This document shows positions 32,501 through 46,836 of a stretch of DNA of 64,000 nt, piece by piece. The notes under the pieces are model-generated. The model searched no databases. It was not told where the DNA came from and worked only from the letters and a program-made list of their open reading frames with translations. This DNA is from Haloarchaeobius salinus (GTDB lineage Archaea > Halobacteriota > Halobacteria > Halobacteriales > Natrialbaceae): the NCBI RefSeq assembly GCF_024464185.1, contig NZ_JANHAU010000007.1:124001-188000 (forward strand). The letters are read 5' to 3'. Position numbers and translations under genes: made by a program. The first letter of the stretch is position 1. Each line of letters opens with the position of its first letter.

Positions 32501-32559
32501 GGAACCCCTTCGAGGAAGTCGTTAAAGGCGGCTACATGAATATGAGTGTAGATCAGTGA
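26521..32559 (+). CDS. Giant sacsin-like HATPase protein with C-terminal DUF3883
   Basis: 2012 residues. The N-terminal about 200 carry a GHKL/Hsp90-type ATPase fold as in sacsin: ELLQNARDA near residue 88 (metal-binding Asn), VANTGHPFD near 120 and HKGVGLKSI near 153. The middle about 1600 residues are helical and unassigned. The C-terminus (VEVKAVGGRTPPFHFRLTTNEYRRC near 1920) matches DUF3883, a PD-(D/E)XK-like domain common in restriction-type systems. An ATG at 26587 is an alternative start; GGAGGGGG about 12 bp upstream supports 26521. Proteins with this pairing turn up in defence islands; ATP-driven sensing plus DNA cleavage is inferred. It appears to be a single-gene unit, with no partner within 300 bp. 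Confidence 0.8.
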   Translation: MTSRLSTALPWHLSTSSASVDSMASQSTVVDHLTEAELFERWSDRWDHFLDDFSAASSSATVSERLRDKVKSGNAERAIAGGHEGREILELLQNARDAIPGETDGGRVYVGVYDEGVLVANTGHPFDMFDPDVEDAVTMIGESSKGNSDQEIGHKGVGLKSILATGDAFEIWTRHESATNETLRVRLSRSYVTAALLSSLGYDTSAFDLRGAVSNEAIQSLTTTSNADQRTEDLTQDAREDIGKLPLFDFPVPLTTASGADDPVADRASALITGDVDEWYGDPFRTAVFVEYEDTEWRDILKEFNIPQPESSDGDSAGRAERLWSYLSKEADGEDATSETLTPETLIQFGGIETLLLERVGGTDQPSRERWDVDRTPGPLDSETVRHETVTVAVEGTDASFADEQFDQFGFADADAPTQLLVPQTRTERERPQEYPLYLYYPIENTRDVSLPFCLHGHFTVETNRKDLSLNSLDDNQAVLERGVELVARVAEAAGGSNFGGRYPWILLPPPPKSYPDNPSSQASLLTWFRAAVYEELRERPCVPTVSDVDGLSTPVVPSESLLHWDGTVRGGFLALFEVMDSLGESVSDAVVDRYFPTRDTLEGCRSVPATWDERIEALLWVDDVEQFSTEIARSWGAILGSHLDRRTIGQDTSHLVCDSSTARALFVGTIETILRSGSNDDELSATLDMLSSHLEGVYLLPCRRTSKSGVVGDDAEEPRSESDPADSTLLVPIEARSGPNPNERGTSRTRSVIWDVNSPERDTQPPEVPREKSSFRVYFLDRAVEQNERARRVLDLAGRPWGVRVYDGTPSYFRELLDTFAMDDSARVKPLDFYFLAKQINKLGSESTDLQTDEGSFVPTEYVKSAVARSDGDQRQNLRRRLNLRNNRLTLPREGGTHTIRETILDDDWQRIRALAHREDATEDWDTFDGDASTTWPAPTEEAWVPIADALETDDAHERIAKTLSLFGVSVLPNIRTVWMYGSGHPRTRGDASWDPVEWSADDFLAGDGVPESAGALQRSLADAENVYQQWITAPGRHPQATAEHSSKCNVKTDGVLRDVFLATWIWFDDLDAVQQLGEENLLELLHRYEGQFTKSILETGWTCSHGHQRDGYGWSKSVPTLLNWQLRQLAVWDSTVTANPELQDRWGDDASRFAYTVVKTGSRGARASRLFPHIDPDDLDLSEELLRKLGVKPVNSFDATEAAWHLHRLLEVLAVDGPHEEPVALDIPDDRDNDWNAAYTALLEPILRQLPAEDPAAEDVDLPFLSHLPIMRSGEWQVASLEWLAENADKGRYYEDQSPKPWERRAVEQGGHWLLPRTASGPFTRLTNALEIARVDASKPIFEADELTFTDESVAEFRSALRDRMMLLVASLEQRSEDRIREFADDLDAAIADLRVAEQFPEVIEDDLDAPKSGLYAPRDGEEAFVFNSAAFDDGLTLDGLANAVSLLAEQPTTIATFREALDEDLSPAELTKRWQRRTFPVDDVARILGTRRRRDLRQRLDAIVALVERFDGVVAPTVDEVVESIEREDDTAVQEFKRALCGDDATTLDGMSPQGTFVRDVRESLPHELSFVLNRLFGEDRQPWREVILESESGHESEVIDWLAKNARALDATACFPQSVPSAYVRVLAVMNVWDRTEATDLNDVDVWRSRLRALSTESNVEWVDRLPDRLQNEDADGELLFYYSPEDRLQSQVVTPFLEGLSGAIASETTNLETMLRQYILEGELPEDEATVSAADHQDGALADLQSAAMSGQQFSTESLLDAGFEVQSASTRTTGSNGGGGSTQYRGRGQQGEAATLVAMLDDAATWLDDQPIGMIRTVRSTFRTLHDDQQNGNHSWHLDRVWEQELLPLLSGGGLTRESIVDWRDHLEDGRLRDHPLVRLCNVTLEQGPGFDVIDPFGPVSGPRREFDIGQFVPVEVKAVGGRTPPFHFRLTTNEYRRCKAFLREDRSYVIRLVHVPEPGTPNWASETRFVSEIVLEDVSDAESLVRGNPFEEVVKGGYMNMSVDQ

Positions 32560-33341: not shown

Positions 33342-33365
33342 TGAGTGACTGTGTGGGTCTTCGCC

Positions 33366-34622
33366 ATGGGGATGTTTCAGCGGGACGATCAGGTATTCGC
33401 GGATGCTGAACCCCTCGACGACTCATATGAACCCGAGGATATTCGCGAGCGGGATGAGGAGCTCGAAAAATACCAGCGAGCACTCCAACCGATAATCGAC
33501 AACCGGCCGACCTCGAACACCTTCCTGTATGGGAAGACGGGGACCGGAAAAACGGTTGCGACGAAGTTTATGTTATCACACCTGGAATCAGATGCGGAGG
33601 AGTACGACGACGTCGATCTCTCCACCGTCTGGGTCAGCTGTGAGAATCTCTCCTCCTCGTACCAGGTCGCCGTCGCACTGGCCAACGAACTTCGACAGAA
33701 CCAGAGCAAGGATCGGATCAGTACCACGGGCTACTCTCAACAGCGAGTCTTCGACATTCTCTACGAGGAACTTGACGCTCTCGGCGGAACCGTCGTGATT
33801 GTACTCGACGAGATCGACAATATCGGTGACTCGGACGACATCTTGTATGGACTGCCGCGGGCTCGCTCGAACGGATATGTCGAAGAGGTTCGTCCCGTGA
33901 TTGTTGGTATCAGCAACGACTTCCAGTTCCGAGATAACCTCTCGCCCAAAGTCAAGGACACACTCGCCGAGAAAGAGATTCTCTTCCCGCCGTACGATGC
34001 GAATCAGCTTCGATCAATTTTGAATCCCCGTGCGGAGAAAGCATTCCACGATGGCATCCTCGAGGAGGAGGTCGTTCCACTTTGCGCCGCGTTTGCTGCT
34101 CAGGACACGGGATCTGCACGCCAGGCGATTCGTCTCCTTCGGGAGGCTGGAGAACTTGCCCAGGCAGATGAAGCTGAGTCTGTGACGGAGAATCATGTCC
34201 GGGCTGCTCAGGACGAGCTCGAGAAGAACCAGCTGTATGAGGGCATGCAGGAACTCACGACACAGGGCCACGCCGTCCTCTGTGCACTAGCATACTATCA
34301 GGCTGGTGGTGAAGTCCCCATCCGTTCTCGAAGTCTGTACGAGCGGTACGTGAAAATCTGCGACCGGCTTGACGCTGATAGTGTGAGCGAACGTCGGGTT
34401 CGAGACCACCTGTCCGATATGAATATGCTCGGGCTCATCAGCGTCTACGAACGAAACGAGGGACTGTCGGCTGGCCGGTACCATGAATACGAACTTGATG
34501 TCCCGCTAGATGCGGTTCTTGAGGTTCTACTTTCGACTAATCGGTTCGAAGACGTCGCGAACATTATCCAGTCGACAGCGACCGACAATAACCGTCTTCA
34601 GTCCGGGCTCTCTGATTATTAG
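33366..34622 (+). CDS. orc1/cdc6: Orc1/Cdc6 replication initiator
   Basis: 418 residues from the ATG at 33366; a GTG at 33345 would add seven codons, but the TTTTATAAT box at 33334 fits a leaderless start at 33366. AAA+ motifs: Walker A GKTGTGKT near residue 55, Walker B VLDEIDNIG near 146, and arginine-rich sensor region RAEKAFHDG...QDTGSARQAIRLLREAG. A winged-helix domain (RRVRDHLSDMNMLGLI) closes the protein. It should bind the repeats of origin A on both sides of the gene. It is only distantly similar to the second orc gene at 38-39.4 kb. Confidence 0.9.
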   Translation: MGMFQRDDQVFADAEPLDDSYEPEDIRERDEELEKYQRALQPIIDNRPTSNTFLYGKTGTGKTVATKFMLSHLESDAEEYDDVDLSTVWVSCENLSSSYQVAVALANELRQNQSKDRISTTGYSQQRVFDILYEELDALGGTVVIVLDEIDNIGDSDDILYGLPRARSNGYVEEVRPVIVGISNDFQFRDNLSPKVKDTLAEKEILFPPYDANQLRSILNPRAEKAFHDGILEEEVVPLCAAFAAQDTGSARQAIRLLREAGELAQADEAESVTENHVRAAQDELEKNQLYEGMQELTTQGHAVLCALAYYQAGGEVPIRSRSLYERYVKICDRLDADSVSERRVRDHLSDMNMLGLISVYERNEGLSAGRYHEYELDVPLDAVLEVLLSTNRFEDVANIIQSTATDNNRLQSGLSDY

Positions 34623-35261: not shown

Positions 35262-36062
35262 TCACCGTGCCCCACTCGCTTCCCACTCCGGACGTGGTGT
35301 AGGGGACGGGAGTTTGTCAACCACAGTTCGAAGTTCGTCCTCTGTCGTCCACGGGAAGCATCGATCGTGGGGTTCGAATTTGCGGAACTTGTTGAGATGG
35401 ACCCAACGGTACGTTGTTGGCTCTGCTCCCTCATCTGTCCGGTCGTCGATCACGTCCCAAACCTCCTGCTCGTTGATGCCAAGACCGCTATCTTGGGCGC
35501 GATCAACGAGGGCACCAACCTTTGATTGGACCTCATTCACCGACAAATCGTCTGCGAACGCGACTTCGAGGGCGGCCTGAATGACGTGCCGTGTCGAGTC
35601 AAGGTTCTCGTCAGTCGCCCACGCGTAATCACGCGGGAACACGTACGACTTGTCGAAATACGGTTGGTCATCGATCTCGCCCAGTTCAGGAGCCTCACCA
35701 CCACTCTCCTTCTCGAAGACACCGACGATGTAGTCGCTGTATGTCGCCAGCAACGAAAACATGATATCGAACGTATTGAGCCGGTCAGTGGGGAGCTCAA
35801 GGAGATCACCCATGATGAATGGATAGGCACCGAGCTGCTTTGCGAGTTCGTTCTGGACGGCCCGGAGACGGCGAATGTAGGGATCGCGGTAGCTCCCGAG
35901 GATGAAATACGACGTCCGCTGACTCCAGAGATACGGCAGTTCGCGCTGCGTGAACCGCCAGATCTCCCGTTTCTCCGCTGGTTCAAGCTCGATCCCCCCG
36001 ACAGCCTCGTGAACAACTGTCATAATGTCCGCAGCGTCTGGCGGAGGGCTTGGGTCGGTCAT
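35262..36062 (-). CDS. Rossmann-like protein of unknown function, paralogue A
   Basis: 266 residues from ATG 36062; ATG 36089 is also possible. Core: TSYFILGSYRDPYIRRLRAVQNEL, then a predicted strand YPFIMGD, then FDIMFSLLATYSDYIVGVFEKESGGEAPELGEI. The strand-GSY-helix opening and the later G-x-x-x-E-L-G pattern recall nucleoside 2-deoxyribosyltransferase/TIR-like Rossmann folds, but that is inference. The protein at 46288-46836 shares YFxLGxY, PIRRL, a middle helix and VGVxEKE. Each gene is divergent from a winged-helix gene of one family. The C-terminal about 100 residues are specific to this copy. No operon partner lies downstream. Confidence 0.7.
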   Translation of the reverse strand: MTDPSPPPDAADIMTVVHEAVGGIELEPAEKREIWRFTQRELPYLWSQRTSYFILGSYRDPYIRRLRAVQNELAKQLGAYPFIMGDLLELPTDRLNTFDIMFSLLATYSDYIVGVFEKESGGEAPELGEIDDQPYFDKSYVFPRDYAWATDENLDSTRHVIQAALEVAFADDLSVNEVQSKVGALVDRAQDSGLGINEQEVWDVIDDRTDEGAEPTTYRWVHLNKFRKFEPHDRCFPWTTEDELRTVVDKLPSPTPRPEWEASGAR

Positions 36063-36177
36063 TGACTGCTGATTCGAACCACAACACATTACCTCTTCTG
36101 AACTACTTTGGTTAATCCGTAAATTACCAACTTGGTTGACCCTAACTGTTATGGCGACGCTTCTTGTAGAGACACGT
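36063..36177. promoter_or_regulatory. Divergent promoter with imperfect GGTTAAT palindrome
   Basis: TTTGGTTAAT and ATTACCAACTT around 36108-36131 form an imperfect inverted repeat between the two divergent starts. TGTTATGG at about 36147-36154 lies about 27 bp before the ATG at 36178 and fits a TATA box. The winged-helix product is the likely ligand. Confidence 0.45.
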
Positions 36178-36666
36178 ATGAGCGAGAGTCACAGCGGAAC
36201 CGCTGATGCGGGACCGTTCGCGGAACAGCAGCGGCTTTTCAAGCTGCTGTCCCAGGATACGCGCCACCTCATCATCCAAGAGCTTCTCGGCCATCCCGCC
36301 CATCTCATGTCGCTCGCCGAACTCGAGTACATGACTGGGAAGAGCCAGGCAGCCATCAAAGACCAGCTTGAGACGCTGACCGACGCCGGGCTCCTCGCAC
36401 GCTACACGCACGAACCAAGTGAGGGAAAACGCAATCTCCCCTCGCAGTTCTACGGGTTCACCGAGCGAGGCGTCGAGGTCCTCCACGACTACAAGTATCT
36501 CCGTGGCCTCCCGGTCGCTCGCGCCCTCTACGAGAACACGCGAAAGACTGAGAAAATTGAACGGCACGAATCGGCACCGCGACCGGAACTTCCAGAAGCT
36601 GTTGCGGAGGCACTCGAGTTTGACGAACCCGACCTCGACGCCGGCGACACCAACTCGAAGCAATAG
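36178..36666 (+). CDS. PhiH1-repressor-like winged-helix regulator, paralogue A
   Basis: 162 residues from ATG 36178; 36136 would extend it by 14. A winged-helix core (LLSQDTRHLIIQELLGHP, SLAELEYMTGKSQAAIKDQLETLTDAGLL) is followed by FYGFTERGVEVL and a conserved tail KxExxxxAPRPE. The protein at 45746-46159 has the same order of motifs, so the two are paralogues. It is divergent from the unknown-function gene at 36062. It likely represses one or both genes of the pair. Confidence 0.8.
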   Translation: MSESHSGTADAGPFAEQQRLFKLLSQDTRHLIIQELLGHPAHLMSLAELEYMTGKSQAAIKDQLETLTDAGLLARYTHEPSEGKRNLPSQFYGFTERGVEVLHDYKYLRGLPVARALYENTRKTEKIERHESAPRPELPEAVAEALEFDEPDLDAGDTNSKQ

Positions 36667-36716
36667 ATTCCCCTGTAGGAAGAGTATAGAAATTCTGATC
36701 TAGAATATTATTCGGA

Positions 36717-36840
36717 TACTGGATCCTTGTAGTCCCAGTTGAGACTGTCTCCCTGTCGACGGACGATGTACTTGTAGGGGCCATGCAGTTCGCCGGACTG
36801 GCACTTCAGTTGTCCTTGCCACAACTAACCTTCTTGATCA
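36717..36840 (-). pseudogene. Relic of a small CGK...C.C zinc-motif protein (DUF6788-like)
   Basis: The minus strand reads VSCGKDN, a frameshift, then CQSGELHGPYKYIVRRQGD and DYKDPVSE-stop. This is the pattern of small proteins with CGKxNCxC...HGPYxY motifs. The intact gene at 42187-42510 has a similar end (YYYWQWREGEKIRSQYKGPV), so this may be a decayed relative. Confidence 0.45.
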
Positions 36841-36843
36841 GGT

Positions 36844-37067
36844 ACACCGGTCTGCAAGTGTTCTGAACCAGGCAAAGGCCAGAGCTACGTAACCTCTCAC
36901 ACCACCTTGCAAGTGTTTTATTTTGGTCGCTGCTTCGGTAGCTGTCCCAGGATACACCACCGTGCAAGTGTTTTGAAGCGGTCATCGATCCAGGACCGCC
37001 ACCTCACACACCACCGTGCAAGTGTTCTTAGTGGACGTCCGACCCTACACCACCGTGCAAGTGTTTT
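36844..37067 (+). repeat. Iteron array B: five CACCACCGTGCAAGTGTTTT repeats
   Basis: Copies start at about 36844, 36898-36900, 36954, 37008 and 37047. The first four are spaced 54 bp apart, about five DNA turns; the last gap is 39 bp. All are direct. Sequences between repeats are unrelated. The CCACCGT half is shared with the origin A box. Likely an initiator-binding or replication-control array. Confidence 0.8.
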
Positions 37068-37074
37068 CCCGATG

Positions 37075-37195
37075 ACTCCAGTTGGCTCTGGTGAATCGCC
37101 ATACTGCGCTTGATTTTCGCTACCTCACGACGTTGCTTCTCGTAGTTTGACGACTCCTTCTGCTTACGAGACAGCTTACGTTGCTCGCGACGGAG
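37075..37195 (-). pseudogene. TnpB (IS1341-type) fragment
   Basis: The minus strand encodes REQRKLSRKQKESSNYEKQR and REVAKI, the central region of IS200/IS605-type TnpB proteins. About 40 codons remain, fused at one end to the iteron array and at the other to the polymerase fragment. Confidence 0.6.
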
Positions 37196-37840
37196 ATCAC
37201 GGAACGCGTCGAGATTCGGCTCGAACACGAAGCCCACTACGACTGGGTGGCGTTCGTGCCGCAGCGCGAGAGCGACGCCGGCGCGTTGACGAAGTACTTC
37301 GGGAAAGTCGCCGGCGCCGGCGACTTCAAAATCAGAGGTATCGAAGCCCGACAGCGTTCGACCCCGCCGTTCATCGATAAGGTCCAGCGGGACTGTCTCG
37401 AACAGTTCGGCGCGACTCGGTCGCCTGACGCGGTACGAGATCGTCTTCAGGACGCCGTCACACGTCTCCATGCTGGACCGGTCCCAGTCGAGTACCTCGT
37501 CGAACGGAATCGCGTCTCCAAGCCGCCGGAGGGGTACACGCAGAACACTCAGAACTTGGCGGCCCTGAAACGGGCTCGCGACCAGGACCTCGCCGTACAT
37601 CCCGGACAGGATATCGAGTACGTGGTCGTCGACGACGAGAAGACCTCTCGAGAACGGGTCGCCCTCGCCCACGAGGAGATCGAGACCTACGACGCCTCGT
37701 ACTATGAGACGCAGCTCGTCCGAGCTGTCGAGAGCGTGCTGTCACCACTCTGCTGGGATCGGACTGAACTTCAGCGGGAACTCGCCACGATGGAAAACGC
37801 CACGTTGAGTTCATTCGAGCCCACCAGCGATATGTCGTAG
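37190..37840 (+). pseudogene. DNA polymerase B C-terminal fragment (PolB2-like)
   Basis: About 215 codons. YDWVAFVPQRESDAGALTKYF, RGIEARQRSTPPFI and LAVHPGQDIEYVVVDDEKTS, then YYETQLVRAVESVL, are typical of the thumb and C-terminus of the second B-family DNA polymerase found on haloarchaeal plasmids and proviruses. The polymerase and exonuclease active-site parts are absent and a TnpB scar replaces the 5' part, so it cannot be functional. Two smaller fragments of the same gene occur at 20.4 and 32.7 kb. Confidence 0.8.
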
Positions 37841-37929
37841 CCGACTAACCCATCATCCTACGTTTTCGTTGTGTTTTTCAACTATTTCGTTCCTTAATAT
37901 AACTGATGCGATTGTGCCTATTCTTCCAT

Positions 37930-37955
37930 CAATTGCGGACGTGCCCGGGGGTGGG
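37930..37955 (+). repeat. Origin C box downstream of the second orc
   Basis: AATTGCGGACG followed by a CCCGGGGGTGGG run, matching the three boxes at 40960-41492. It lies about 30 bp past the orc stop codon, on the convergent side. Confidence 0.7.
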
Positions 37956-37983
37956 TAACGAACGGCTGACAATCTGACCGTAG

Positions 37984-39363
37984 CTACCCCAGCGTCTGCT
38001 GTTCGTTCAGCCAGTTCTTTGCAAGTTCGTTGAAGTCAACCGCGTCGAATCGAGAGACAGCCTCGAGCACCTCGATAGCCGTCGATGGCTCGACGCGGAG
38101 TTCGAACGTGTAGGCCTCGCCGCCGACAGAGCCGGAGGCGGATTTCCGTGCGCGAATTATACTCAACATATCGAGTTCGATGAGATGGTCACGCATCCGA
38201 CGCTGAGCTAGACGGTCCGCATCAATGTGGTCTGAAAGGGACCGATAGACATCATAGACATCACGAGTCCGAATCTCGGAATGGCCCGCGAGTTCCAGAA
38301 TCGTCACTGCTGCCAGCGCAAGGTGACCCTGCGTCGTGAGCTGTTCCATCCCCTCGATAATGAGTTCTCGCTCAGCTTCGCCCTGGGCCGTTCGGACGTG
38401 TTGTTCGTTGACACGGGCATCGCCCTCGGATTCGGCGATTGCGGCAGCTTTTCGGAGGTACTTGATTGCTTGGCGGGCGCTCCCTTTGTCCTGTGCAGCG
38501 TACGCAGCACAGAGCGGAATTACCTCGTCGGTCAGGACGTCTGAATCGATACGGAGGAGCGTGCAATCGGTTCGATCAACGTCCTTTTCGTTGAAGGGCT
38601 TGGCAAGTGAGCCGTCGTCGTCATCTAAATCGATATTGATCTCAAGCTCCTCGCCTTTTGGTGTCTCATAGACGAGCGATGTTTGTCGGAACGCCTTGCT
38701 CGCACGGCGGGAGAGGATGTCGCGGAGTTCGTTCGCGTCGTAGGGCGCAAAGAAAATTGAGTCGTCGTAGAGGCTATCCTTCGCTGCAGGGTCGAGATTA
38801 TCACGCCACTGGAGGTCGTTGCTGATGCCGATTATCGACGGATAGACGTCGTCGTTGACGTAGTCCTTGTCGCGTGCTCGAGGGAGGGAGTAGAGGATTT
38901 TGTCGTCCGTTCCGAGATTGTCGATTTCGTCGAGGACGATGATTATGGTCCCTCCGATCTCGTTCATCGCGTCCCAGAGATGGTCGAGTACCTTCTGCAT
39001 CGGATGTCCATTGGGGTTCTCGCCTCCGAGTTCCTCGCAGAGTCCACACGCGAGCGTGTAACTCGAAGAGATTCCCTCACAAGAGAAGAACACCGTTGTC
39101 AGGTCGAGATTCTGAGCGTCAGCAAACGCTTCCAGTTCAGCCAGTTCTGCCTTCGCGGCCGCCGTCTTCCCCTGACCAGCCTTTCCCGAGAGGAACGTGT
39201 TCTCGGCGCCGGCGCCACGGGCGGCAGGCTTCAACGAACGGCGGAGCTTCAAGATTTCGTCCTGTCGCTCCGGCAGCGTCGTCGGCGTGTGACCCTCTTT
39301 CAGGTAGTCCTCGCCGCCGACCGCAAAGATTTCCGAGGTCGTCGAGTACGGGGACGAGTCCAT
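37984..39363 (-). CDS. orc1/cdc6: Orc1/Cdc6 replication initiator, second copy
   Basis: 459 residues from ATG 39363; the open frame runs up to 39465, but TTTATG-like AT sequence about 27 bp before 39363 supports this start. AAA+ motifs: Walker A SGKAGQGKT near residue 58, Walker B VLDEIDNLG near 144. The extended insertion (LEINIDLDDDDGSLAKPFNE near 300) is not in the first orc. A winged helix (RRMRDHLIELDMLSII) closes it. Origin C boxes lie downstream (37930) and beyond the TnpB element (40960-41492). A partial GTCCGGAATT match is at about 39442-39451 upstream of the start. This orc likely serves origin C. Confidence 0.88.
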   Translation of the reverse strand: MDSSPYSTTSEIFAVGGEDYLKEGHTPTTLPERQDEILKLRRSLKPAARGAGAENTFLSGKAGQGKTAAAKAELAELEAFADAQNLDLTTVFFSCEGISSSYTLACGLCEELGGENPNGHPMQKVLDHLWDAMNEIGGTIIIVLDEIDNLGTDDKILYSLPRARDKDYVNDDVYPSIIGISNDLQWRDNLDPAAKDSLYDDSIFFAPYDANELRDILSRRASKAFRQTSLVYETPKGEELEINIDLDDDDGSLAKPFNEKDVDRTDCTLLRIDSDVLTDEVIPLCAAYAAQDKGSARQAIKYLRKAAAIAESEGDARVNEQHVRTAQGEAERELIIEGMEQLTTQGHLALAAVTILELAGHSEIRTRDVYDVYRSLSDHIDADRLAQRRMRDHLIELDMLSIIRARKSASGSVGGEAYTFELRVEPSTAIEVLEAVSRFDAVDFNELAKNWLNEQQTLG

Positions 39364-39532
39364 CGTGCGTACGTCGTGTGGTCTAACCACATAAACCCCC
39401 GTGTCCGTAATGTCCGCCTTGTCCGAATAACCCCCCACCTTGTCCGGAATTATTCTGACCGGCAATCCACCGACGGCATTCCAGCCGGATATTCCAAGCC
39501 CGGTCGTTTATTTTAATAAGAACTCTCCCATA

Positions 39533-40810
39533 ATGTATTATGAGGCCAGTTCGATGCTGGAGACAACCCGCACCTACATCGCACGCATCACGAACCACCC
39601 ACAGGTTCGTGACGATCTCGACCAGTGCGGGTTCTCCGCGTCGAAACTGTGGAACGTCGGCCGCTACTACATCCAACAGCGGTGGGGCGACGACGGTGAG
39701 ATACCTGACGAAGCCGAACTGAAATCGGAGTTGAAAAACCATGAACGCTATAGTGACCTGCATTCTCAGTCAAGTCAGCGAGTTCTCGAAGAGCTTGCTG
39801 AGGCGTTCACTGGTTGGTACAGGTCGGACGACGGTAACAACCCACCGGGCTACCGGAAACGTGGCGACCGACACCCTCGCTCCACCGTCACATGGAAGAA
39901 ACGAGCTATCAAGCACGACGATAAACACGGCCAACTTCGCCTCTCGAAAGGCTTCAACCTGAAAGAAAGTCGGTCAGACTTCATCCTTGCAGAGTACGAA
40001 ACTCGCCCTGACGTAGAAGTCGAGAACATCCAGCAGGTGCGTGCCGTCTGGAACGGCGACGAGTGGGAACTACACATCGTCTGTAAGAAAGAGATTCCAG
40101 TCGAAGACGCACCTGGTGACAAGACGGCGGGTATCGACCTCGGAATCAGCAACTACCTCGCGATCGACTACGAGGACGCCCCCTCGGAGTTGTATCCGGG
40201 GAACGTGCTGAAAGAGGACAAGCACTACTTTACCAGCGAGGAGTACCAGACCGAAGGTGAGAACGGGCCGTCGAAGCGAGCGCGGAAGGCTCGGCAGAAG
40301 CTCTCCCGACGCAAAGACCACTTCCTTCACACCCTCAGCAAGCACATCGTTGAGCGGTGTGTTGAAGACAGCGTGGAGAAGATAGCGATTGGCGACCTCA
40401 GTGACATCCGCGAGGATGAGAACGGTGACTCACGGAACTGGGGTGCGTCGGGGAACAAGAAGTTGCACGGCTGGGAGTTCGACCGATTCGCCCGTCTACT
40501 CGAATACAAGGCCGAGGAACACGGCATCCTCGTTGACCGTGTAGACGAGAAGAACACCTCGAAGACGTGTTCGTATTGCGGGGAGATTCGAGAGGCAAAC
40601 CGCGTGGAGCGCGGTCTGTACGTCTGTTCGTCGTGCGAGACAACCATGAATGCAGATGTGAATGGTGCGGTGAACATCAGGAGAAAGATAACTCAGAGTC
40701 CCCCGACGGGGGATATGAGTAACGGCTGGTTGGCACAGCCCGGAGTCTTCCTGTTCGACCGCGAGAGCGGACGGTTCACACCGAGAGAACAGGGAGACTG
40801 CAAACCCTAA
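39533..40810 (+). CDS. tnpB: TnpB RNA-guided nuclease
   Basis: About 425 residues; ATG 39533 is chosen because of the AT-rich GTTTATTTTAATAAG about 15-30 bp upstream, with ATG 39554 as alternative. The RuvC site looks intact: GIDLG (Asp), IGDLSD after a helix (the Glu position lies in the conserved EKIAIGDL segment) and NADVNGAVNI (Asp). The zinc ribbon CSYCG...CSSC is complete. TnpB cuts DNA next to a transposon-adjacent motif, guided by an RNA from the element's right end. Length is normal for the family, so it may be active. Confidence 0.85.
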   Translation: MYYEASSMLETTRTYIARITNHPQVRDDLDQCGFSASKLWNVGRYYIQQRWGDDGEIPDEAELKSELKNHERYSDLHSQSSQRVLEELAEAFTGWYRSDDGNNPPGYRKRGDRHPRSTVTWKKRAIKHDDKHGQLRLSKGFNLKESRSDFILAEYETRPDVEVENIQQVRAVWNGDEWELHIVCKKEIPVEDAPGDKTAGIDLGISNYLAIDYEDAPSELYPGNVLKEDKHYFTSEEYQTEGENGPSKRARKARQKLSRRKDHFLHTLSKHIVERCVEDSVEKIAIGDLSDIREDENGDSRNWGASGNKKLHGWEFDRFARLLEYKAEEHGILVDRVDEKNTSKTCSYCGEIREANRVERGLYVCSSCETTMNADVNGAVNIRRKITQSPPTGDMSNGWLAQPGVFLFDRESGRFTPREQGDCKP

Positions 40811-40857
40811 TATCCCAACGCTCGGGATTCCTCCGGCTTCAGCCGGAGGAGGATGTC
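40690..40857 (+). ncRNA. Probable TnpB guide RNA (omega/reRNA) region
   Basis: In this family the guide RNA overlaps the end of tnpB and runs through the right end. The terminal hairpin at 40830-40849 and GGAGGATGTCAA end are present; the guide would be the next about 16-20 bases from about 40858. Boundaries are estimates. Confidence 0.5.
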
Positions 40858-40959
40858 AACTGCGTTTCGCTGGCACTATGGTATTGAGAATAGTGGAACT
40901 ACCCACACTTTTGGCTTTGAGAGGATGTCGATCGCTTCAGTTTCACGGTTGGACAGAAA

Positions 40960-41492
40960 CCCACCCGGGCCCCCGGGGTCGTCCGCAATTATTCAGGGAA
41001 CCGTAGGGAGGGGGATAGTTCGGTTATTCCGACTGATTTTTGGAGGGATTGTTAATCTAGTGCGGTTAATACGGGATGCTGCTAATCATATATTATAAAT
41101 TTTTCTATTAGAAGTAGTAAGTAGTAGTTAGAGGAATCAATTCGCTGGTGTAGACCGACGCTATCTTTTATTTATATGTCACAGCCGTTGTGTTGCCTGA
41201 GCTTCGAGACACTTCTTCCGTGGAATTGCGGACGACCCCGGGGGCGGGGGTTAGGTTCGTTTCCTCTTTTTCCCGTAGCTGGACTGAACGTGTTCCATCG
41301 GACCTACGTGGGGACGGCAGGCACGGTGTCGAAGGAGGTGGTTGAACGGTATATCGAGGAGACTGAACATTAGAGCGAGTGTCGGGCTTCACCGCCGCCC
41401 ACGATGGGGTGGGGAACTCGACCTCTCAAGTTACAGATGATCCCCTCTCCTACACTTCGTGGGTGAATTGCGGACGCCCCCGGGGGTGGGGG
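40960..41492. other. Putative replication origin C
   Basis: A reverse box (40960-40990) and two forward boxes (41223-41250, 41465-41492), each with AATTGCGGACG joined to a CCCCGGGGG/GGGG run, flank an AT-rich tract at about 41035-41180. G-rich ends point outward, the same geometry as origin A. The same box lies at 37930-37955 past the second orc gene. I see no convincing gene in 40858-41620. Confidence 0.65.
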
Positions 41493-41622
41493 ACTGTGGA
41501 GTCAAGTTGCTCGATGAGTATCGTCAGCAGTGTCGAAGTGTTAATGTCCGGTATTTTGGATGGGAGGGCTTAGTGAATTTTCAACTCAACCGAGCACAGA
41601 TTTCCTCATATTTCGGACACCC

Positions 41623-41970
41623 CTACTCAAGAACTTGTACACTAACGTCGTCCACCTCAAATAGTAACGTTTCTTCTTTGTTTCCACGATCGTACAACCA
41701 TTTCACCTCAACTGTCCAGCCTGTGGGTGTTCGTCTCGCCTTAACGCTACCTGAGCCCTCAACATGGTCTGGTGGTTCGATCGAATTCTCTTCGGTGAGT
41801 ATCTTGATGAGACGGCCATCATCAACATCAGTAGTGAACCCTTCAGCCCACTCCTCACCAAACTCGACGCGTACTCTCTGCACTCCGGTAATTCCCCATT
41901 CGTCTCCTTGGATGCGATTACTGCTCATAACGGTTGTACGAAAGCTCGGGGTTTGATTCTTTCCCGTCAA
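41623..41970 (-). CDS. Hypothetical protein
   Basis: 115 residues, or 101 if it starts at the ATG at 41928. Acidic and beta-rich (VQRVRVEFGEEWAEGF, GWTVEVKWLYDRG, LLFEVDDVSVQVLE) with no motif I recognise. The amino-acid make-up is haloarchaeal, which favours a real gene. No close neighbour on the same strand. Confidence 0.45.
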   Translation of the reverse strand: MTGKNQTPSFRTTVMSSNRIQGDEWGITGVQRVRVEFGEEWAEGFTTDVDDGRLIKILTEENSIEPPDHVEGSGSVKARRTPTGWTVEVKWLYDRGNKEETLLFEVDDVSVQVLE

Positions 41971-42069
41971 GAAATGTCAGAGCCTATATTTTGGTTAAGT
42001 CGATAATCTTTGTATGGCGGTAAGCAGTCGTTCTTTCATACTCTATGTTGGATATTGAATTGCACCCTA

Positions 42070-42163
42070 CTCCACTATTTCCTGAGCTTTGGTGGTTGAA
42101 AGGGGTAACATACACCACCATTTCCTAAGCTACCGAAGCAATACATCACCATCTCCTAAGCTT
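42070..42163 (+). repeat. Three degenerate origin A boxes
   Basis: CTCCACTATTTCCTGAGCT at 42070, CACCACCATTTCCTAAGCT at 42113 and ATCACCATCTCCTAAGCT at 42145. They are direct repeats about 30-45 bp apart, 7 kb from the other origin A boxes, just past the end of the small gene at 42187. Confidence 0.65.
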
Positions 42164-42186
42164 CCTGTGCGGATCTCGCTCCAACA

Positions 42187-42510
42187 CTACTTGTCTGGAT
42201 TGACCGGGCCCTTGTACTGAGAACGAATCTTCTCTCCCTCCCGCCATTGCCAGTAGTAGTAGCGGTTGTCGTTAATCTCCTTGATCGTGACCGTCGCTTT
42301 GGCCGGGACGTCGTCCGGGAGATTGTCTGGTCGCTCTTCGACCTCTTCTTGATCTGCCGACTCCTCGAGACGCGCCTCTCGTTCCTTGTGCTCGGCGAGC
42401 GCTTCAGCGTACGTAGCAATATCTCGGAGCTGCTCCGGGTCCGACTCGTTGAGCGTGTTGATGATCTCCGTCGGGAGGTTCGCCGGTGGGGTCGGGGATT
42501 CGTAGGACAT
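42187..42510 (-). CDS. Small conserved plasmid protein, DUF6788-like C-terminus
   Basis: 107 residues from ATG 42510 (an upstream ATG at 42537 lies inside the palindrome). The N-terminal half is a charged helix (EQLRDIATYAEALAEHKERE); the C-terminal half reads VTIKEINDNRYYYWQWREG and EKIRSQYKGPV, as in small DUF6788-type proteins, but lacks the CGKxNC part seen in the relic at 36.7 kb. The palindrome at 42525-42565 lies 15 bp before the start and may control it. Divergent from the regulator at 42649. Confidence 0.65.
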   Translation of the reverse strand: MSYESPTPPANLPTEIINTLNESDPEQLRDIATYAEALAEHKEREARLEESADQEEVEERPDNLPDDVPAKATVTIKEINDNRYYYWQWREGEKIRSQYKGPVNPDK

Positions 42511-42524
42511 CGGGTGCTCTCGTG

Positions 42525-42565
42525 TTAACCAACACAACCGGCGAATCCATAGTTTTGTTGGTTAA
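42525..42565. promoter_or_regulatory. TTAACCAACA palindrome, copy 2
   Basis: Arms TTAACCAACACAAC and GTTTTGTTGGTTAA (13 of 14 paired) with a 13-bp spacer, between the divergent starts at 42510 and 42649. Related to 21617-21645 and 46861-46912. Its position suits an operator. Confidence 0.7.
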
Positions 42566-42617
42566 GACGGTGGGGACGGCTCTCGTGCCTGCTGACTGTA
42601 ACACTACTCGAAACTTC

Positions 42618-42625
42618 TTTATATA
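42618..42625 (+). promoter_or_regulatory. TATA box of the two-winged-helix regulator gene
   Basis: TTTATATA lies 24-31 bp before the GTG at 42649, which decides that start as leaderless. Confidence 0.6.
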
Positions 42626-42648
42626 CAAGTTTCGTACTATGTTACAAC

Positions 42649-43572
42649 GTGCTCCGGCGCATCGAACTCGAGGTCCTCGCCACGGTCTACCCCGGCGACA
42701 CGATCTCCGAGCTCGCGACGAAGCTCGACCACAGCGAGAGCTACCTCTCTCGTGCCGTCGCCGACCTCGTCGAGAAGGGGCTCGTCTACACGGAACGCGA
42801 CGGCCGTCGAAAACGCATCGTCCCGTCGGATGCTCGCGCCGTCGAGCTCTATCAGGACCTCGTCCGCCAGCACTCCCACATCGAGTTCCCTGAACTGCTG
42901 ACCGGGAAAGCACTCGAGGTGCTGTACTACCTCGACCAGCCGCGAACCGTCTCCGAGATCGCCGACCGGAGCGACAATTACCGCAACACGGTCAACCGCG
43001 TCCTCAAGCGGTTTCGCGACCGTGGGCTCGTCGGGACGGCCGACGGCCGCTATGACTTCAACGCGGACTTCGACAGCCTCCACGAGTTCGCCCGTGAACT
43101 CGCACACCATCTACATCGTCAACGCCTCGAATCGGTCGCCCCGAAGGGCACGATTCTCTGGGAGGACTACGACGAATTCCTCGCCCAGGCTGAGACGGAG
43201 ATCGAGGCAGAGGGGTTCCACGAAACCGGACTCGCTCGATTCGCGGCCTTCGACCTCCAGTTCCTGCTCACCGGCCACCGCTACTACGTCTACTCCGAGA
43301 ATCTCGACGCAGTCTCGCCGGCGGAGCTCTGCTGTCACACGCTGCTGATCGACGACGGCAGCCGCCACCGCTCGTACTGTCTCCTCCTGCTCAGCCACGT
43401 CGACGTCGACGAGGCGGCCCTCCGAGAGCAGGCGGCGAAGTATGGCCTCGAAGAGGAAATCGACGTCTTGCTGCGCTACCTCGAGACGCACGGCGAGGTC
43501 GACGACAACCGTCTCGTGGAGTGGGACGAGTTCCAGGAGCTGGCGGCTGACTACGAGGTGCGACTATCCTGA
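42649..43572 (+). CDS. Transcription regulator with two winged-helix domains
   Basis: 307 residues with a GTG start at 42649 set by the TATA box at 42618. Two MarR-like winged helices follow each other: residues about 1-60 (ISELATKLDHSESYLSRAVADLVEKGLV) and about 80-140 (TVSEIADRSDNYRNTVNRVLKRFRDRGLV). The last about 160 residues form an acidic domain of unknown fold with several Cys and His (ELCCHTLLIDDGSRHR). Such proteins are common on haloarchaeal plasmids. It may act on the palindrome just upstream. The vapBC pair follows convergently. Confidence 0.8.
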   Translation: MLRRIELEVLATVYPGDTISELATKLDHSESYLSRAVADLVEKGLVYTERDGRRKRIVPSDARAVELYQDLVRQHSHIEFPELLTGKALEVLYYLDQPRTVSEIADRSDNYRNTVNRVLKRFRDRGLVGTADGRYDFNADFDSLHEFARELAHHLHRQRLESVAPKGTILWEDYDEFLAQAETEIEAEGFHETGLARFAAFDLQFLLTGHRYYVYSENLDAVSPAELCCHTLLIDDGSRHRSYCLLLLSHVDVDEAALREQAAKYGLEEEIDVLLRYLETHGEVDDNRLVEWDEFQELAADYEVRLS

Positions 43573-43609
43573 GACCAAACATCGTCAGCAGCCGTGCCGT
43601 CTGCCAGCG

Positions 43610-44044
43610 TCAATTCGGATCGTAGGGATTCGTTGCTGTTTCGAGTCGATAGACATCCTCGACAGCGTCAAAATCGTCGTCGAGCGCATACAGGTAGCCG
43701 AGCCCCTCGGTTTGCATATACGCGACAATGCAGGCGTCGACGAAGGAGAGCGGTTCGTGTTGGCGAAAGAGGGCCTTCCCTGTCGCGAGGGCGTCGGTGG
43801 TGAGTGAGTTGATGTGGAAGCGGGCGTTTTCTTCGATGCGATCGAGAAGATCGACAGCTGCGTCGTGGCCGGCGTGGGTCGTGAGGCCGTTGAGCGTTTC
43901 CGCGAGGACGTAATCCAAGACGACTGCCTCCGGGAGCGTTCCATTGTCGATGCCCTGCAGCACGGGAAGCGCGGCATCGTGTGAACTATCTCGTCGGTAT
44001 GCGGCAGCAAAGAGGACTGTCGTATCGATGAGTGCACGGGGCAT
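43610..44044 (-). CDS. vapC: VapC-type PIN-domain toxin
   Basis: 144 residues. PIN-domain acidic residues are present: LIDTTVL at the start, LAETLNGL near residue 48, SFVDACIVAYM near 100 and YALDDDFD near 120. VapC toxins are magnesium-dependent RNases that cut tRNA or rRNA. It follows the antitoxin gene directly, with no gap. The pair probably stabilises the replicon. Confidence 0.88.
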   Translation of the reverse strand: MPRALIDTTVLFAAAYRRDSSHDAALPVLQGIDNGTLPEAVVLDYVLAETLNGLTTHAGHDAAVDLLDRIEENARFHINSLTTDALATGKALFRQHEPLSFVDACIVAYMQTEGLGYLYALDDDFDAVEDVYRLETATNPYDPN

Positions 44045-44296
44045 TTACTCGACGTCGACGCCCCAGGCGTCGTGTTCGCTCATTACGTCGGTCGGTTCCT
44101 CACCAGCGTAGCCGTCGAAGTCGGCGAACGTGCCTGTTTGCTGTTGGATGACGTGGACCCGAATGCTCCCGTCGTCTTCGAGCTGCCAGCGGAGTTGATC
44201 ACCATCGTCAATATTGAGTTCACGCCGAATCCGGGCGGGGATGTTTGCCTGGTTTCCAGACACCTTGCTTTCGGCGTCGATTCTATCGCTGCTCAT
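44045..44296 (-). CDS. vapB: VapB-type AbrB/SpoVT antitoxin
   Basis: 83 residues from ATG 44296. N-terminal AbrB swapped-hairpin domain (KVSGNQANIPARIRRELNIDDGDQLRW) followed by an acidic tail that should bind the toxin. The frame runs further upstream but the AbrB domain and GGGAGGT before the ATG favour this start. Its stop codon is immediately followed by the vapC start. Such antitoxins bind their own promoter. Confidence 0.85.
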   Translation of the reverse strand: MSSDRIDAESKVSGNQANIPARIRRELNIDDGDQLRWQLEDDGSIRVHVIQQQTGTFADFDGYAGEEPTDVMSEHDAWGVDVE

Positions 44297-44327
44297 ACCT
44301 CCCGGTATGTGACCGGCCGTGAAAAGC

Positions 44328-44452
44328 CTAGTGTGCCGCCACACTACCCAGTACCAGAAGAGTGATTCCGACGAAGAGGATAGTGATCTCCCCCGAGTTC
44401 GTTGGAAGCCAGTCGTCTGATAGAGGTGCGAGCGCATAGTACCGTCTTCAGG
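44328..44452 (-). pseudogene. C-terminal fragment of a membrane protein
   Basis: The minus strand reads YALAPLSDDWLPTNSGEITI and LFVGITLLVLGSVAAH-stop, one transmembrane helix at a C-terminus. The 5' part is cut by a transposon scar near 44450. Parent family not recognised. Confidence 0.35.
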
Positions 44453-44599
44453 CGGAGGTTGAGCGACACTCGGCCGCCGACCTTCCATCGGAATCTCTCT
44501 GCTGTGGCCCAACGTAACACGGAATGCGACGGATTCGGTGAGATGCCGTCCCCAAACCACGAGGGGTGGCGAACCAGCGGTGGTTCGCACGGCGATGAC

Positions 44600-44775
44600 A
44601 CGGAATCCGGCGGGGCCTCATTGGCCGGGCCACAGCCCTACGAGGGAGATAAACGAGAGTTCCCCCGGTGTGTCGCCGGTTCCCTCCGAGTGCGGGTTGG
44701 AACCGAAAGGCGACGACCGCCCGAATCCGATGGTCGGATTCCACGTCCTTCAGGGCGTGGAGGAGGTCAATGGGA
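44600..44775 (+). mobile_element. IS200/IS605-type right-end relic with hairpins
   Basis: GAATCCGA-TGG-TCGGATTC (44723-44741) is followed by CCACGTCCTTCAGGGCGTGG and AGGAGGTCAA, the right-end layout of IS1341-type elements. The upstream 44470-44700 stretch looks like decayed coding DNA, but I could not assign it. Confidence 0.5.
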
Positions 44776-44870
44776 ACGCGGCCCTGTTTGAATTTGTATT
44801 CGACGCGACGCCGATGCTTAGAGCCGCCTTGGGGTGAGTGCTGCTGCCAGTCAGGAGAGTTGACACCCTC
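44770..44870 (-). pseudogene. Decayed SWIM zinc-finger gene fragment
   Basis: The minus strand reads SPDWQQHSPQGGSKHRRRVE and YKFKQGRVP, which aligns with CPDWQQRSPEGSCKHLRRVD and REIKRGRVP of the gene at 46914. The zinc cysteines are lost here. Confidence 0.6.
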
Positions 44871-45053
44871 CCCGTCCTGAACAGTAGACGCTGAATCAAA
44901 TCGAGGCCGGTGGAGGATCATTTCCTTCAACAGCTCAGTTGGGGCGAATCCGAAACGGAGACCGAGGGACCGCCGCCGACCGGCGGCGGTCCCGAGCGTT
45001 GCCACTCAGTTGGGGCGTTCTGACCGGCCGTCCCGGTTGGTGTGACTCAGCCG

Positions 45054-45735
45054 CTAGTCGTAGTCTGTCGAGAGGACGAACGTCCGGAAGATTCGCGTTG
45101 AGAGTGGCGGTTTCGTCGGGATCGTTCCACCCGAGAGGAGGACGTTCGCCAACACCCACAGGTTGTACAGTGAGACCGCAAACAGAAAGTAGAACAATCG
45201 TACCGAGAACGTCGGCGACGACGTTCTCGGCAGGAAGTCGCCGATCTGGCGATACGATGTCTCGATACCCCAGCGGCGGCGGAACGCCGCCGCGTACGCT
45301 CTTGCTGTCTCACTTTCTACGTCAAGGTTCGTGACGAACCAGATGTGTTCATCCTCGCTCGTTCGATGAGGTACGGCGAAGACGGTGACGTCAACCGACG
45401 CTGTTGGCTGGCGCTTACGCTGCATCCGATAGGCATCGACGACCGTCTCAGCGCCGGCGCTGAGACGGGCTTTCATCCCCGTACTCGGTCGGGCACGCAC
45501 GATGAAGTCGACCTCTAGCTGTTCCAACTCCGCCACGACGTGAACCTGGTAGAAGCCCCGGTCGAGATAGACGTTCTTCTCTCGTGTAGGTTCCACACGG
45601 CTTCCTGTCGAAATCGAGCGCCGGATACACCAACGTTGAGGCCGCCCGACAGACCTGTTTTGCTTCGGCTGTCTCGACCATTCCTGAGACTACGAACCGC
45701 AGCCTCAGTTAGGTTCGGCAACTACTGTTCACGGC
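45054..45735 (-). mobile_element. Truncated IS4-type (ISH) transposase
   Basis: An intact C-terminal frame (45054-45596) reads KNVYLDRGFYQVHVVAELEQ, FIVRARPSTGMKARL and RRRWGIETSYRQIGDFLPRT, the end of a DDE transposase with the Y-R-E-like region of IS4-type elements. N-terminal pieces in other frames reach about 45720. Frameshifted and truncated, so inactive. A GGGGAGGATGTCA sequence at 45739-45751 marks another IS605-type scar at its edge. Confidence 0.65.
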
Positions 45736-45745
45736 GGGGAGGATG

Positions 45746-46159
45746 TCACGCTTCTTCCGGACGGGGAGCGTTCTCGTACTTGACCATCTTCTCGGGCTTG
45801 TCGGAGATGGTGTCGTAGATCTGCTGGAGGGTCTTCTCCGCGGCGAGCAGGTTGTGGTCGTCGAGGAACTCCCGCCCCGTTTCGGTGAGCCCGTAGAACT
45901 TCCAGGGGTAGCCCTGACGGCGCTGGTCATCGTTCAGGGAGACTTCCTTGACGATACCGACGTCGATGAGCTTCTGGATATGCTTGTAGACGGTCGCGTC
46001 GCTCACGCTGGGGTTGAGCTCCTCGAGTTCGTACATCGATGGGAGCTGGTCGGGGTGTTGAAGGATGTTGTTGATGAGAGAGAATCGTGTCTGCTGAGTG
46101 ACGAAGTGGATCAGTTCGCGAGACTCCATCTCCTCAGCAGTCCCAAGGTCGGTGCTCAT
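45746..46159 (-). CDS. PhiH1-repressor-like winged-helix regulator, paralogue B
   Basis: 137 residues from ATG 46159; the frame extends to 46273 but the family start and the TATA-like AT tract near 46187-46193 favour 46159. Winged-helix core VTQQTRFSLINNILQHPDQL, SMYELEELNPSVSDATVYKH, IQKLIDVGIV, then FYGLTETGREFL and KYENAPRPEEA. Same motif order as 36178-36666. The palindrome GTTTTACTCAAGGGTAAAC overlaps its promoter, suggesting autorepression. Divergent from 46288. Confidence 0.8.
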   Translation of the reverse strand: MSTDLGTAEEMESRELIHFVTQQTRFSLINNILQHPDQLPSMYELEELNPSVSDATVYKHIQKLIDVGIVKEVSLNDDQRRQGYPWKFYGLTETGREFLDDHNLLAAEKTLQQIYDTISDKPEKMVKYENAPRPEEA

Positions 46160-46287
46160 ACCGTACAGTACACGACGAAGCGGCAAGTAGTTTACCCTTG
46201 AGTAAAACACCCTGGAGTGAACCACAACCACTTGAGTGAGTGATTTACTCCATAAACCATACCTCTCCACCATGAGAAACTCGCAGT
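46160..46287. promoter_or_regulatory. Divergent operator region of module B
   Basis: GTTTACCCTTGAGTAAAAC (about 46189-46207) is a near-palindrome over the leftward promoter. GAGTGATTTACTCC (about 46235-46250), with the same TTTACTC half-site, lies just before the rightward TATA-like CATAAACC at 46250-46257. Shared half-sites suggest one repressor controls both genes. Confidence 0.55.
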
Positions 46288-46836
46288 ATGCCTGATGAGG
46301 AGTCGCCTGTTCCTGATGACGTTCTCAAAAGTGCCAAAGACCAGCTTGAAGATGAGGAAATAACGCTGGCCGACAACGAGGAGGTCCTCCACGCCTTGAG
46401 CGAGTTGACTCCGGTCTACGAGAACGACCGGTCGTACTTCGTCCTCGGGAACTACGACCGGGAGCCAATCCGACGGCTGAACCTGGTAGTGGACCGTCTC
46501 AACCGTCGCACCGACGCATACGCGTTCCGAATGGTCGATATCCGTGGAGAATGGGACAACAGTATCCAGAAGTTCTGCCTGATCGCCGATATCGTGACGT
46601 ATCTCGTCGGTGTCGCCGAGAAGGAGCCAAGTGACTTCCTCGTCGAACAGGGATTGCTCGTCGGTACAACCGAGTTCTTCGCGAAAAGTCACGTCCTCAA
46701 GCGGGAGTACGAGGACGAGGACCACCCGTTCGGTTGGATGCAGGACGGTGTCTTCGAACTATTTGACCAGGAAGGACGGCTCTACTGCTGGCGAACCGAG
46801 GAGGACCTCGTTGACGTGACTGGTGAGCTGCCGTAA
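46288..46836 (+). CDS. Rossmann-like protein of unknown function, paralogue B
   Basis: 182 residues. RSYFVLGNYDREPIRRLNLV, then AYAFRMVDI, then CLIADIVTYLVGVAEKE and FLVEQGLLVGT parallel the core of the protein at 35262-36062, but this copy lacks the extra C-terminal about 80 residues. The late E-x-G pattern after the VGVAEKE strand recalls NAD-cleaving or deoxyribosyltransferase-like folds (inference). It is divergent from a regulator paralogous to that at 36178, so the gene pair is duplicated as a unit. Confidence 0.7.
   Translation: MPDEESPVPDDVLKSAKDQLEDEEITLADNEEVLHALSELTPVYENDRSYFVLGNYDREPIRRLNLVVDRLNRRTDAYAFRMVDIRGEWDNSIQKFCLIADIVTYLVGVAEKEPSDFLVEQGLLVGTTEFFAKSHVLKREYEDEDHPFGWMQDGVFELFDQEGRLYCWRTEEDLVDVTGELP

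Follow-up and report, generated by a model that had tools for sequence, protein, structure and literature searches.

A stretch of 64,000 nucleotides of haloarchaeal DNA from Haloarchaeobius salinus (contig NZ_JANHAU010000007.1, positions 124,001 to 188,000; the window in what follows) carries two divergent gene pairs, at 35262-36666 and 45746-46836, each composed of a winged-helix regulator (family H) and a partner with a predicted Rossmann-like fold (family P). The contig measures 218 kb in a genome of 3.85 Mb, and a search of this genome recovered only two copies of P, both on this contig. We conclude with high confidence that H and P constitute a genuine two-gene module that is nameless in the libraries searched. 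The features of the two pairs are collected in Table 1.

Table 1. The two H-P pairs and their control regions, in window coordinates (ORF, open reading frame; aa, amino acids).
Feature	Position	Strand	Description
P1	35262..36062	-	266-aa effector-family protein; ORF runs on to ATG 36089; Rossmann-like core (predicted) and helical insertion; conserved GVFEKESGGEAPELG; start placed from relatives
Intergenic control region 1	36063..36177	.	TTGGTT/AACCAA half-sites; CCAACTTGG palindrome 36127-36135; TTGGTTAATCC 36108-36118; core kept across 12 distinct aligned sequences
H1	36178..36666	+	162-aa winged-helix regulator; ORF runs on to TTG 36136; APRPE motif near C-terminus
H2	45746..46159	-	137-aa winged-helix regulator; ORF runs on to ATG 46273; C-terminal end APRPEEA; without cysteine
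Intergenic control region 2	46160..46287	.	128 bp; GTAGTTTAC 46187-46195 facing GTAAAACAC 46202-46210; GTGAACCAC 46217-46225; GTGATTTAC 46240-46248 facing ATAAACCATA 46252-46261; core kept across 37 distinct aligned sequences
P2	46288..46836	+	182-aa effector-family protein; compact Rossmann-like core (predicted); G54, E111, E120 and K133 invariant (41-member alignment)

The two pairs had been recognised in a first-pass annotation of the sequence as copies of the same two families, and the alignments bear this out far beyond chance: P1 and P2 share 31% identity over 143 amino acids (E 7e-14), and H1 and H2 share 32% over 133 amino acids (E 2e-20). Most of the motifs quoted there are present in both copies, namely FYGFTERG/FYGLTETG and APRPE in the regulators and YFILGSY/YFVLGNY and VGVFEKE/VGVAEKE in the partners; PIRRL occurs in P2 only, the P1 counterpart being YIRRL. 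Mechanical open reading frames make both regulators too long. Relatives of H2 start at the ATG at 46159, as against 46273 in the mechanical frame, and gap 2 is therefore 128 bp. P1 probably starts at ATG 36062, because its relatives begin with MTDPSP, and H1 probably at ATG 36178, which would give a gap 1 of 115 bp.

The strict association of the two families is the observation on which the module rests. In 59 haloarchaeal genomes searched with both H and P profiles, all 46 intact P genes had an adjacent divergent H, at a distance of 83-359 bp and in many cases of 119-147 bp, so that the tight coupling of the regulator to a single effector suspected from the window alone holds genome-wide. Six remnants of P were also found, and the four that lacked a nearby H were all truncated. 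The reverse dependence was looser: an intact P was absent beside 18 of the 65 strong H matches (E <= 1e-21), 17 of these 18 had no stop inside the match, and no consistent replacement effector was seen beside the orphan H genes. A wider set of P/H loci, whose members are numbered L###, gave the same picture, with 111 complete P genes beside H and 2 without, and 5 incomplete ones beside H and 11 without. Two full-length divergent members whose ends had been missed by the profile (L107 and L128) were reassigned by hand, giving 113 against 2 and 3 against 11; the resulting Fisher p-value of 1e-11 is a guide only, because the reassignment was manual and the loci are mutually related. Neither exception is clean: in L096 the H gene is broken by a run of N (an assembly gap); at L077 the start codon and the control region are missing, and P is fused to a remnant of H. 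Other loci without H, such as L037, carry a truncated P. The sole co-directional arrangement, with H upstream of P, was found in one clade (L107-L109 and L128). Moreover, H and P have co-diversified, as the mirror-tree correlation of 44 pairs reached r = 0.82 against a maximum of 0.18 in 2000 permutations. Double pairs are not restricted to the window and occur also at L044, L053, L100 and L190.

Family P is annotated as hypothetical protein, and neither single proteins nor 41-45 diverse members gave a match above noise in Pfam, NCBIfam, PHROGs or PADLOC; a search of PDB sequences with hmmsearch found no solved relative, the best match (E 0.08) being an unrelated enzyme. The family is nonetheless common in haloarchaea: it was found in 180 of the 292 genomes sampled, representing 64 of 77 genera, at 103 loci across the genome collection and in 65-96 plasmid records, the number varying with the query. 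It is known from Halobacteria only, mostly on plasmids or secondary replicons and often near orc1/cdc6 genes. One such plasmid is pNRC200 of Halobacterium salinarum NRC-1, which carries the pair VNG_RS11970/11975. Among 295 genomes of the phylum, none from another order contained P. Likewise, no relative could be confirmed among 2.9 million viral contigs, and a viral origin was rejected on that ground. The literature searched holds no description of the H-P pair, although many subscription papers lie outside that coverage; the family thus appears undescribed in these sources.

Both intergenic gaps contain inverted and direct repeats that are kept across orthologues, which confirms and extends the palindromes first reported for the window. 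The putative operator differs by subfamily, being GTTTAC/GTAAAC in pair 2 and TTGGTT/AACCAA in pair 1. Alignment of 37 distinct pair-2 gaps revealed a conserved core, CAAGTAGTTTACYCTTGAGTAAATCACTCTAGAGTAAAC...GGTAATTTACTCCATAAACCATA, in which half-sites recur in inverted and direct orientation. These gaps hold 3.4 half-sites each as against 0.22 in dinucleotide shuffles, an excess that is descriptive because the pattern was chosen after viewing the sequences; cross-species conservation of the core is the stronger evidence. Gap 2 of the window is itself a weaker example, with two exact half-sites and a shuffle frequency of 0.0175. A different core, ATAACAGTTAGGGTCA.CCAAGTTGGTT......AACCAAAG.GATTCAGAA, is common to the 12 aligned pair-1 gaps, and the window copy of CCAACTTGG is a perfect palindrome except for its centre base. 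Since the repeats adjoin both start codons, control of both genes is suggested; the operators would overlap both promoters and are predicted to be bound by H. The use of different operators further suggests that the two pairs probably act independently.

The regulators of the window resemble the ArsR and PadR families, with weak matches to the HTH_5 (ArsR), PadR and HTH_20 models that stay below the cut-off. No conserved cysteine for metal or thiol sensing was found in the H alignment; such sensing was rejected for that reason, and the sub-threshold matches to these models likewise speak against an ArsR metalloregulator. Most members lack an extra ligand domain. A few variants of 367-390 amino acids (L188, L189, L190, L118 and L120) have a long C-terminal extension beyond the APRP region and retain their P partner.

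The Rossmann-like character attributed to P from its sequence is supported by AlphaFold models of both copies. The AlphaFold2 model of P2, built from 39 sequences, has alternating strands and helices, with a mean predicted local distance difference test score (pLDDT) of 80 and a predicted template modelling score (pTM) of 0.76; that of P1, from 45 sequences, has a pLDDT of 86. In a Foldseek search with P2, just two PDB entries scored E < 0.001, the effector of retron-Ec86 (Eco1) among them. Further matches at a probability near 1 included nucleoside 2'-deoxyribosyltransferases (NDT), DNPH1 and TIR domains, with GTPases and flavodoxins mixed in, and template modelling (TM) scores for the NDT, DNPH1, TIR and retron matches ranged from 0.4 to 0.66. 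Two glutamates, E111 and E120 in P2 numbering, lie within GVxE...GGxxxExG and are invariant both in the alignment of 41 members and in that of 45. The invariant glutamate just past strand 105-110, in its GGxxxExG context, recalls the GVGYELG of a haloarchaeal NDT-family homologue (L142). An NDT/TIR assignment of P is therefore a structural lead, and an enzymatic activity of P, possibly of N-glycosidase type, is a hypothesis based on the models. P stands apart from these proteins in two respects: it has no significant sequence homology to the retron effector, NDT, DNPH1 or TIR proteins, and H is a separate divergent gene, in contrast to the retron, with no reverse transcriptase noted among the conserved neighbours.

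The need of P for H, the mobility of the pair, the co-diversification of its members and the operators directed at its own genes are together best accounted for by a toxin held in check by a repressor or antitoxin. We thus propose that each pair may work on its own as a regulated-toxin (toxin-antitoxin-like) module carried by haloarchaeal plasmids. H is a small winged-helix protein in which no domain for a ligand or a metal is obvious; it would bind several half-sites in the gap of 115-128 bp and, placed beside both start codons, would repress P and probably H itself; it might also neutralise P by direct contact. P would be, as a best guess, a glycosidase of nucleotide or NAD type whose fold is akin to that of NDT and TIR proteins, with E111 and E120 as invariant acidic residues, and would harm the cell once H is missing or inactivated. 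Such harm could stabilise the replicon or act on incoming elements. We infer the toxicity and chemistry of P, the binding of DNA by H and the neutralisation of P by H. For the immunity, toxin-antitoxin-like or superinfection role suggested in the first-pass annotation, support is indirect and comes from the unequal dependence of P and H on each other, from their spread on mobile DNA and from the operators.

Several points weigh against this proposal. The P1 model has no convincing structural neighbour in Foldseek, the retron effector ranking second with a TM of 0.30, and this non-specific result did not strengthen the case for an NDT/TIR relationship. Profiles of P compared by hhalign with haloarchaeal NDT and TIR alignments scored no better than an unrelated control, and homology to either was dismissed as not significant. 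A divergent order is unusual among protein toxin-antitoxin pairs, a repressor that acts on transcription only cannot by itself give post-segregational killing, and the orphan H genes with open frames suggest some role of H without P. Finally, an H that is a required activator would leave P useless without it and yield the same asymmetry. Because of this last point, and because helix-turn-helix pairs can mimic toxin-antitoxin modules, our confidence in a regulated toxin is about one half.

Several known systems can be compared with the pair. In the rac prophage of E. coli, RacR and YdaS-YdaT show that a transcriptional repressor can be divergent to toxin genes and be needed because its partner is toxic, and have been called a possibly atypical toxin-antitoxin system (PMC5700377). 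The likeness lies in a putatively DNA-binding regulator divergent to its partner gene on mobile DNA, control of P by H being suggested by position and operators. It is an analogy and not a homology: the protein families are presumably unrelated, the operon there encodes two toxins as against one effector here, and toxicity, shown there, is only predicted for P. With type II toxin-antitoxin systems the pair shares a mobile, plasmid-rich two-gene unit, a putative DNA-binding partner whose presumed promoter region carries operator-like repeats, and an intact effector that is not found without its partner while orphan partners are tolerated. It differs from them in that nearly all copies, including all 46 pairs of the 59 genomes, are divergent and not in one operon on one strand, and in that P belongs to no known toxin family of Pfam, NCBIfam, PADLOC or PHROG.

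A regulated enzyme without toxicity is rather unlikely in our estimate. H would then be an activator or a ligand-responsive repressor, and P would make or break a small molecule in stress or detoxification. Makarova et al. (2009) list ArsR-COG3832 among the ambiguous helix-turn-helix pairs that can look like toxin-antitoxin modules without being such and may be generic regulators (PMC2701414). Like that pair, an ArsR-like helix-turn-helix protein is here strictly matched to one family of another kind; COG3832, however, is of the START superfamily (Aha1 type) and mostly chromosomal, whereas P is haloarchaeal and plasmid-rich and has a predicted Rossmann-like fold. The resemblance of H to ArsR/PadR regulators fits such a role, and an activating H would explain the dependence of P, but an obligate dedicated activator would not be expected to persist without P as H does. 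The absence of conserved sensing cysteines and, in most members, of a ligand domain is also unfavourable, as are the patchy, plasmid-rich spread and the chromosomal copies without conserved neighbours.

Effectors with TIR or NDT folds are common in abortive defence, and the fold of P hints in their direction. H could accordingly keep P silent until a virus or plasmid enters and derepresses it, leading to abortive infection or to the blocking of a rival plasmid, and a plasmid-borne repressor would entail zygotic induction. Defence genes are indeed abundant at the other end of the window. We nevertheless find this explanation improbable, as PADLOC returned no convincing match to P over 45 members, and the genes associated with P are those of replication, with no conserved defence neighbours.

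As for these replication genes, 41 loci have orc1/cdc6 within 8 kb of P, 19 have DNA polymerase B and 7 have ParA, and pair 1 sits between two orc1/cdc6 genes (33345-34622 and 37984-39465). Across 29 genomes about 225 orc1/cdc6 matches were counted, a background density of roughly one in every 400 kb, and the excess near P is in part due to plasmid location. Chromosomal H-P copies have no conserved neighbours, orc1/cdc6 included, and the pair therefore behaves as an independent module that moves alone. A part in the replication or copy-number control of orc1/cdc6 replicons, with H regulating origin activity and P as its modulator, is still less probable, even though orc1/cdc6 also adjoins some orphan H genes (L198 and L208), given these chromosomal copies, the position of the conserved operator in the H-P gap and the presence of two different pairs on one replicon.

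The remainder of the window carries other features. Between the orc1/cdc6 genes, a short repeat around TGCAAGTGTT(T/C)T occurs three times at 36840-36980 and may represent origin elements, and a family-B DNA polymerase fragment (PF00136; 37181-37840, + strand) is an apparent remnant. An IS605-type TnpB gene (39440-40810, +) overlaps at its 3' end with an Rfam sot0042 RNA (40686-40850, +). The gene at 42649-43572 (+) encodes a double winged-helix protein that has an HVO_2833_C domain, and relatives of this protein lie near P in 14 loci. An ordinary VapBC-like pair, made of a PIN-domain protein (PF01850; 43610-44044, -) and an upstream MazE/AbrB-type antitoxin (PF04014; 44048-44350, -), lies 1.4 kb from pair 2. 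Three large genes on one strand (3930-16086, -) match models of DruE, DrmMI/type IIG methyltransferase and DrmD/SNF2 helicase and resemble a Druantia- or DISARM-like defence operon, and a 2012-amino-acid protein (26521-32559, +) matches TmtA of PADLOC over nearly its full length.

To return to a regulated toxin, a more speculative form of it, which we regard as doubtful, would be a class of addiction or exclusion modules peculiar to haloarchaea. Its toxin would be an N-glycosidase of NDT/TIR fold beyond sequence recognition, held by a separate, divergent winged-helix protein serving both as repressor and as antitoxin, and divergence of the operators would let several modules share one plasmid. 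In any case, a common haloarchaeal family has gone nameless in every library searched. If P is a regulated toxin, it would represent a widespread principle of plasmid maintenance or exclusion in haloarchaea, would account for the presence of several such pairs on plasmid backbones, and may tie archaeal plasmid biology to the TIR and NDT effectors.

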